Positions 56,022 through 61,124 of a stretch of DNA of 64,000 bases are shown piece after piece. The position numbers and the translations under genes are program-made. Under the pieces are notes generated by a model. That model saw only the letters and a program-made list of their open reading frames with translations, was not told where the DNA came from and did not search any database. The DNA is from an uncultured Roseateles sp. (GTDB lineage: Bacteria; Pseudomonadota; Gammaproteobacteria; Burkholderiales; Burkholderiaceae_C), in NCBI RefSeq assembly GCF_913777145.1, contig NZ_CAJYPS010000027.1, positions 310,001 to 374,000 on the forward strand. The letters run 5' to 3'. Positions within the stretch are counted from its first letter, which is position 1. Every line of letters begins with the position of its first letter.

Positions 56022-56615
56022 CTGCTCTTGCTGCGAGCCTTTGGACTCGCAGCACCGCCGCGGGAATCCGCCCCGCGAGGGCGGGTAACTTTTCTCTGTC
56101 GCGCCAGAGAAAAGTCACCAAAAGAGGAGCGCTAATTCCACAGCCACTGCGAGCCCGCTTGATCGGGAGCAGCGGCCTGGAGGACAGAGGCGAGCCGCTG
56201 CGCTCTCGCGGTGGACTTGTGACGAGCACCAGCCATCGCACCTTCGCGCCGACTAAGGCGCGGCTGCACGCCGGCGCCTGCGGATGCGAATACAAAACCC
56301 AGGACCGCGCCGCCCGGGCGGCGCTGCATTGGTATTTGCTCGTGAGCACGGCGTGCAGCCGCGCGTTGAACGGCGCAGAGGTTCGAGCCCACCGGGCGAT
56401 GACAAGTCCACCGCGAGCGCGCAGCGGCTCGCTTCAGCGCACACGGCCAGCGTCCGTTGAATTGGTGGACCGCGCAGGAGATCCCGAGCGCGGTGCGGTT
56501 CAGCGCATCTTCTTTGGTGACTTTCTTCTGGGCGCGACCAGAAGAAAGTTACCCGCCCGCCGGGGCGGATTCCCGGCGCGGTGCCGCGAGTTCAAAAGGC
56601 TTGTTGCAAAAGCAG
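56022..56615. repeat. ~594-bp nested palindromic intergenic element, copy A
   Basis: Outer arms ~100 bp in inverted orientation, each with an inner hairpin (GGGTAACTTTTCTCTG/CAGAGAAAAGTCACC); inner inverted pairs; centre GCGCCGCCCGGGCGGCGC at 56307-56324. Confidence 0.9.
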
Positions 56616-56703
56616 GCCGCCCGTACGGTGCCGCGAGTCGCAAAGGCTCATTGCAACAGCAACCCCACACCGTGGCTCCAACAAACCCATCCGGCGCCGA
56701 GAC

Positions 56704-60471: not shown

Positions 60472-60531
60472 TGGGCGCGGCGGGCTGCGTTGGTGCCGAG
60501 CAGTTGGGATCAGCGCTATGTGGCGGGAAGG

Positions 60532-61124
60532 CTGCTCTTGCGACGGACCTTTGGACTCGGAGCACCGCGCCGGGATTCCGCCCCGGCGGGCGGGTAACTT
60601 TCTTCTGGTCGCGCCCAGAAGAAAGTCACCAAAGAAGATGCGCCGAACCGCACGCCGCTCGGCCCCCGCGACCCAGTCCACCACTCCGACAAGCATTTGT
60701 CTCGCGCGTAGAAGCGAGCCGCTGCGCTCTCGCGGCGGACTTGTCATCGCCCGATGGACTCGAACCTGTGCGCCGTCCGACGCGCGGCTGCACGCCGTGC
60801 TCACGAGCAATCCGAATGCAGCGCCGCTCGGGCGGCGCGGTCCTGGGTTTTGCATTGACACCCTCAGGCGTCGGCGTGCAGCCGCGCCTTAGCCCGCGTG
60901 AAGGGGCTATGGCTGGCGCTCGTCACAAGTCCACCGCGAGAGCGCAGCGGCTCGCCTCGAGCCTGACGCCGGGCACTCTCGATCAAGCGGGCGCGCAGTG
61001 GCTGTTGAATTGGCGCCTCTTCTTTGGTGACTTTCTTCTGGCGCGACAGAAGAAAGTTACCCGCCCTCGCGGGGCGGATTCCCGCGGCGGTGCTCCGAGT
61101 TGCAAAGACTCACGGCAAGAGCAA
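60532..61124. repeat. ~593-bp nested palindromic intergenic element, copy B (inverted relative to copy A)
   Basis: Reverse complement of copy A aligns along its length, e.g. GCGGCTGCACGCCGTGCTCACGAGCAA, GGTCCTGGGTTTTG, CACAAGTCCACCGCGAGAGCGCAGCGGCTCGCCTC, GGGCGGATTCCCGCGGCGGTGCT. Confidence 0.9.

Follow-up and report, generated by a model that had tools for sequence, protein, structure and literature searches.

The intergenic DNA between livF1 and livH1 of an uncultured Roseateles sp., lying in a 64-kb window (the whole 64,000-nucleotide stretch of DNA that was analysed), contains a member of a real, multi-copy and apparently unnamed repeat class, no description of which was found in the open-licence literature by name or by DNA string. 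Our preferred reading, held at about even confidence, is that the element is a non-autonomous mobile foldback repeat, similar to an oversized REPIN or MITE and composed of two inverted triplex-hairpin units; we favor it because there are multiple copies, sites that are empty or occupied, near-identical copies at different loci, and a covariation that involves three strands. The element provides a system in which to ask how 0.6-kb palindromes spread, stay uniform, and survive where genomes usually destroy long palindromes.

Architecture of the element

The element consists of two inverted units of ~120 nt, each with a terminal box, a G+C hairpin and a triplex-type hairpin, positioned around further nested inverted repeats (Table 1). 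All of the palindromic parts named in a first-pass annotation are present, including the outer arms with their own local hairpins, the second and third inner pairs, and the centre. The gap, given there as ~594 bp, is 748 bp from the livF stop to the livH ATG, of which the element fills ~593 bp. The outer arms pair as 56040-56105/56531-56596, 56104-56133/56502-56531, and 56023-56043/56641-56661, and the second and third inner pairs are 83% and 82% complementary, respectively. The single-strand fold of copy A, proposed in the annotation as a check, has an energy of -419.5 kcal/mol, far below that of 20 dinucleotide shuffles (-288 +/- 6.7 kcal/mol; z = -19.6), and a 15-mer hairpin word occurs eight times in the window (four per copy) compared with 0.01 expected. 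Aligned copies have the common ends GGTTGCTTTTGC..GCAAAAGCAACC, which constitute terminal inverted repeats, and tandem repeats of the terminal units are frequent outside the element.

Table 1. Positions of the two copies in the window and of the component parts of copy A
Feature	Position	Strand	Comment
Copy A, giant nested palindrome	56022-56615	.	between livF1 and livH1
Left terminal box CTGCTCTTGC..GAGCCTTTGGACTCGCAGCACCG	56022-56060	+	family consensus GGTTGCTTTTGC..GAGCCTTTcgACTCGGTGCACCG
Left G+C hairpin, then AACTTTTCTC	56066-56086	+	terminator-like, facing livF traffic; compensatory changes, helix 1
Left triplex-type hairpin	56084-56126 (stem 56084-56119)	- (sense strand)	third strand AAAAGAG adjoining
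Inner stem 2, 5' side	56174-56220	+	inverted repeat; helix 3
Inner stem 3, 5' side	56236-56273	+	inverted repeat; helix 4
Central 18-bp perfect palindrome GCGCCGCCCGGGCGGCGC	56307-56324	.	helix 5; hairpin with compensatory changes in relatives
Inner stem 3, 3' side	56349-56386	+	inverted repeat
Inner stem 2, 3' side	56402-56448	+	inverted repeat
Right triplex-type hairpin	56508-56553	+	third strand TCTTCTTT 56508-56515; hairpin GGTGACTTTCTTCTGGGCGCGACCAGAAGAAAGTTACC 56516-56553
Right G+C hairpin	56551-56570	-	terminator-like on minus strand; helix 7
Right terminal box and tandem second copy	56579-56661	+	box to 56614; second copy 56626-56661, 83% identical
Copy B	60527-61120 (about)	- (reverse orientation relative to copy A)	between livG2 and livF2; ~85% identical to copy A

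Four overlapping open reading frames have no match in Pfam or NCBIfam, in agreement with the earlier statement that no protein family explains the element, and a coding function was rejected on these grounds. The copies differ by many indels while the stems are kept. Several spurious ORFs cross each copy, and the element probably gives rise to false predictions of small proteins.

Copies in the genome and its relatives

The element was predicted to be multi-copy, and this is borne out. The 4.39-Mb genome contains six full-length copies, with the other five being 83-89% identical to copy A, and there are matches in 18 of 20 congeners (the Roseateles/Pelomonas group), one of which has ~20 full copies; the family is multi-copy with its pairing conserved, and not the single-copy occurrence that the annotation had named as the contrary outcome. 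The genome also contains solo arms and several half elements extending from near the centre to one end (C12, C13, C22, C27:413715, and C34:188542), which recur and give the appearance of palindromes resolved at their centre. At one of the full copies (L003, C27 ~185760) the upstream flank has a different hairpin, CCCACTTTCTG..CAGAAAGTGGG, that together with a G+C hairpin adjoins the copy and probably represents a further related repeat family.

In named genomes, an exact-pattern scan identified carriers in Roseateles caseinilyticus, R. puraquae and several Pelomonas strains, and also among bins with the label Rubrivivax or Methylibium. A separate genus (G146) has this architecture around an interior of unrelated sequence; there, the arms at locus L203 are 68, 64, and 35 nt long and 84-91% complementary, and the DNA fold has a z of -23.9. 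In genera G127, G075, and G025 a second, inverted hairpin is located upstream of the matched hairpin. Using a strict pattern, units were found in 12 of 150 sampled genomes from other families of the order and in 8 of 274 from other orders of the class, with no matches to the reversed control pattern in the same 150 and 274 genomes. One genome from another order of the class has two inverted units ~440 bp apart (G397:C1:616048-616530), and the palindromic layout may extend well outside Burkholderiales. No Rfam family matches the element or unit; a borderline match to 5_ureB_sRNA (L150 972-1269; 40.6 bits, cut-off 40) lies outside the unit. Distant blastn searches of phage and plasmid records gave no match to the element, and a phage or plasmid origin was rejected on this basis.

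Conserved pairing is mainly local

In an alignment of 30 copies, pairing holds in 97.9% of cells and both partners have changed at 12 pairs; the alignment scores 0.104 for covariation, compared with 0.051 when shuffled and no more than 0.046 when slid. As for the covariation between paired arms that the annotation proposed to look for, pairing is conserved, but the double changes are almost all in the local hairpins (the G+C hairpins, the triplex hairpins, and the centre), and where alleles differ the arm-to-arm pairs of the outer hairpins are G-U or broken, with the local pairs intact. Arm-to-arm pairing is mainly a consequence of the two arms being copies of a single unit, and the giant hairpin was downgraded as the conserved structure. 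The long inner stems hardly vary and are therefore of little use as evidence for or against pairing. Outside these stems, species-specific complementary arms are retained in some copies, and others are chimeric. The best-supported structure is that of local triplex-motif hairpins in each arm, and not one giant hairpin.

The hairpin units covary over three strands

The outer hairpins are intrastrand-triplex motifs of the form TCTTCTTTGGTGACTTTCTTCT..AGAAGAAA, with the order, in the sense of the right arm, of third strand, GGTNAC, pyrimidine strand, loop, purine strand, and GTNACC. Two alleles prevail in the genus, TTTCTTCT and TTTTCTCT, each with its matching third strand in nearly all arms, and within one element the allele of the left arm is often not that of the right. 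Among 65 distinct units drawn from many families and representing 8 alleles, the third strand mirrors the hairpin pyrimidine strand perfectly over the variable positions in 61, and the two strands match at 255 of 260 variable positions compared with 161 in shuffles (none of 20,000 being as high), or at 43 of 48 compared with 26 for the 12 distinct allele pairs alone, although these are not exact probabilities because units that are related do not count as independent observations. A mirror relation is a requirement of parallel Hoogsteen pairing (T-A-T and C-G-C triads), and template switching yields inverted repeats, not mirror repeats. Given the many alleles, common descent alone seems an unlikely cause of the three-strand agreement, and the unit is predicted to form a triplex. 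The six-base foot GGTNAC/GTNACC pairs too and has no linker to the third strand, such that the foot would have to open into a loop for a full triplex to form; paired-foot and triplex states may alternate.

On the sense strand, the variable foot pair is T-A in 19 units, G-C in 9, A-T in 1, G-T in 26, T-G in 8, and G-A in 2, and neither A-C nor C-A is present among the 65. The genus alignment has G-U in 29 of 30 at the right-arm hairpin, where plus is the sense strand, and A-C in 29 of 30 at the left arm when read on the antisense strand. As G-T is tolerated and A-C is absent, the folded molecule under constraint is presumably one particular single strand, of either RNA or DNA. Between co-directional genes, 11 units are sense and 13 antisense, some of them being arms of palindromes with a degenerate partner, and at the order-level loci alone there are four of each; in this small sample the absence of an orientation preference weakly favors DNA over mRNA as the folded strand.

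A broader proposition, which we regard as doubtful, is that these units represent a widespread, unnamed selfish foldback class of Gammaproteobacteria (in the GTDB sense, including Burkholderiales), in which some machinery would recognise an intrastrand triple helix on one DNA strand. If true, the three-strand covariation would be evolutionary evidence that the triplex, and not the hairpin alone, is selected in bacterial DNA; to our knowledge, no earlier work has demonstrated selection acting on the third strand. Because the third strand varies with both hairpin strands, the idea is testable with matched and mismatched triples.

Insertion sites and within-species uniformity

The distance from the livF stop to the livH ATG is 0, 0, 2, and 49 bp in four congeners, corresponding to an empty site, and the same point is occupied in twelve other measured congeners, with 378-748 bp. 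Two congeners (G017 and G018) have repeats of different sequence at this position, which is therefore a recurrent insertion site. The G017 repeat (L236 ~891-1500) has a related layout, with the pair CACTTCTTTGG..CCAAAGAAGT and TTTTTGCCTTCTTTTTGG..CAAAAAGAAGG as outer hairpins, and resembles a sister family; the different-sequence repeat in the G018 gap (L230) is at the same insertion point. No target duplication is apparent in 61 copies, nor at the livF-livH site.

Mean identity among copies within a genome is 0.83, and for the same liv locus across species it is 0.71, no higher than for different loci (0.73). The six copies in the Roseateles genome form one clade with 100/100 support, two copies at different loci of one genome (L074 and L079) are near-identical (0.995), and the close relatives G007 and G009 have orthologous copies in common. 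This within-species uniformity would reflect either concerted evolution or repeated replacement, which the data do not separate.

Most congeners have the element at matching liv sites, which could be due not to jumps but to old vertical inheritance with gene conversion and occasional loss, and the lack of a linked transposase and of a target duplication counts against mobility. If the element is a mobile foldback repeat, as we prefer, the unit would be read as one folded single strand containing the third, pyrimidine, and purine strands, most likely as ssDNA exposed during replication, and machinery encoded elsewhere would copy or insert the element without obvious target duplication. We infer that mobility proceeds through a single-stranded intermediate. 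Recombination between copies and arms would keep each species' family uniform, the placement behind genes described below would result from insertion bias or from selection against promoter regions, and a role in liv operon readthrough would be secondary at most.

Gene context and possible roles in transcription or topology

Using a simple codon-position gene finder to assign gap classes, the 83 element-bearing gaps include 55 co-directional, 27 convergent, and 1 divergent, and 243 background gaps from the same loci include 165, 18, and 60 (25%), respectively; the scarcity of divergent gaps has a binomial p of ~2e-9, in a count that is not fully independent as the same site can recur among the loci of one species. 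A previous count, from different loci, agrees with placement behind genes. Like REPs and terminators, the elements are concentrated behind genes and keep away from promoter regions. The intergenic, non-coding, REP/BIME-like nature first suggested for the element is supported.

Placement behind genes and the enrichment in convergent gaps (27/83 compared with 18/243) are also in keeping with transcription punctuation, with the element acting as a two-way terminator or attenuator and as an mRNA 3'-end hairpin between cistrons, where a G+C hairpin followed by UAACUUUYYUC at each entrance would cut readthrough both ways and protect the upstream mRNA. Terminator-like signals do face the traffic at both entrances (4 found, 0.7 expected), the G+C hairpins have compensatory changes, and the tolerance of G-T is compatible with RNA. 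However, the T tract is interrupted and in other families is not adjacent to the G+C hairpin, and the element splits livF from livH, which are adjacent in relatives without it and therefore probably co-transcribed. Furthermore, the units have no orientation preference, and a length of 600 bp and a mirror third strand are more than a terminator requires; we consider this role unlikely. The annotation's related suggestion of an RNA role in readthrough may hold, but in the small sample available the units have no orientation preference relative to co-directional genes.

Less probable again is a DNA-topology site downstream of genes, either a cruciform or H-DNA sink or a site for gyrase or a nucleoid protein, as proposed for BIMEs. 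The combination of a nested palindrome and a homopyrimidine mirror repeat would suit such a site, as would the gathering of elements behind or between converging genes, where supercoils build up. However, the G-T/A-C asymmetry leaves one strand only well paired, which is unexpected if a two-strand cruciform is selected, a protein site was not identified, and the copy number is low, at ~6 to 20 full copies.

Search for a mobiliser

Y1/IS200-type transposase genes are present in all 20 congeners, but the RAYT-type transposase that the annotation proposed to search for was not found as a neighbour; neither the element nor its arms is present within ~1.5 kb of 30 PF01797 (Y1) loci from the 20 congeners at E values up to 10, and a RAYT neighbour was rejected for these 30 loci. 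No arm-flanked transposase was seen. The sole candidate is a 324-aa transposase gene inserted into an element copy in R. caseinilyticus (L085 ~485-1660), which from its protein sequence, judged by eye, we take to be IS5-like; it was rejected as an autonomous parent, being an insertion inside a copy, and the repeat itself is therefore a target for insertion sequences. A GTAG-type tag is absent from the hairpin foot in the aligned units, in which the conserved foot is GGTNAC/GTNACC. Although the inverted doublet of intergenic, strand-asymmetric hairpin units, the lack of a visible target duplication, and the Y1 genes in 20/20 congeners recall a classical REP/RAYT system in which a genomic Y1 transposase mobilises the units, we regard this as the least probable explanation, with none of the 30 Y1 loci having the element or arms, no GTAG tag at the foot, and units several times longer than REPs.

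Comparison with known systems

The element has inverted unit pairs at fixed spacing, and there are sites with and without it. Because a GTAG tag, a neighbouring RAYT, and a target duplication were not found, we do not file it as a REPIN or a classical MITE, although it may nonetheless work like one of these. Enterobacterial BIMEs are mosaics of palindromic units behind genes that avoid promoters; the element shares this layout behind genes but differs in its unit, size, and internal order. REPINs and REP doublets with their RAYTs (PMC3116915, PMC2817692, PMC3733652) similarly have two inverted hairpin units in a larger foldback, and REPINs are likewise non-autonomous, intergenic, and present in many copies with a species-dependent family sequence. 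In contrast, the element is ~600 bp and not roughly 100, has neither a GTAG tag nor a RAYT beside any copy examined, has a unit in which a triplex-type hairpin is accompanied by a mirror third strand, and has an interior that itself consists of nested palindromes. MITEs and Correia-like elements (PMC2229807) are also non-autonomous foldback sequences with inverted-repeat ends located beside genes, but no target duplication was seen and no cognate IS ends were identified for our element, and its inverted repeat spans most of its length and not the ends alone.

Potential intrastrand triplexes have been catalogued in bacteria, and the PIT, BoxC, and TM_ECO motifs (Holder et al. 2015, PMC4666352), which are linked to genome instability, are dispersed in intergenic DNA as the element is, and have the same succession of third, pyrimidine, and purine strands along one strand (class IV; the complement is class II). 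TM_ECO is G/C-rich and short, whereas the motif here is A/T-rich in its triplex part and has a pairing GGTNAC foot, three-strand covariation, and a place as the arm of a giant palindrome; the text of PMC4666352 does not mention the element family. By layout the nearest systems are REPINs and MITEs, and by motif they are the intrastrand triplex motifs (PMC4666352).
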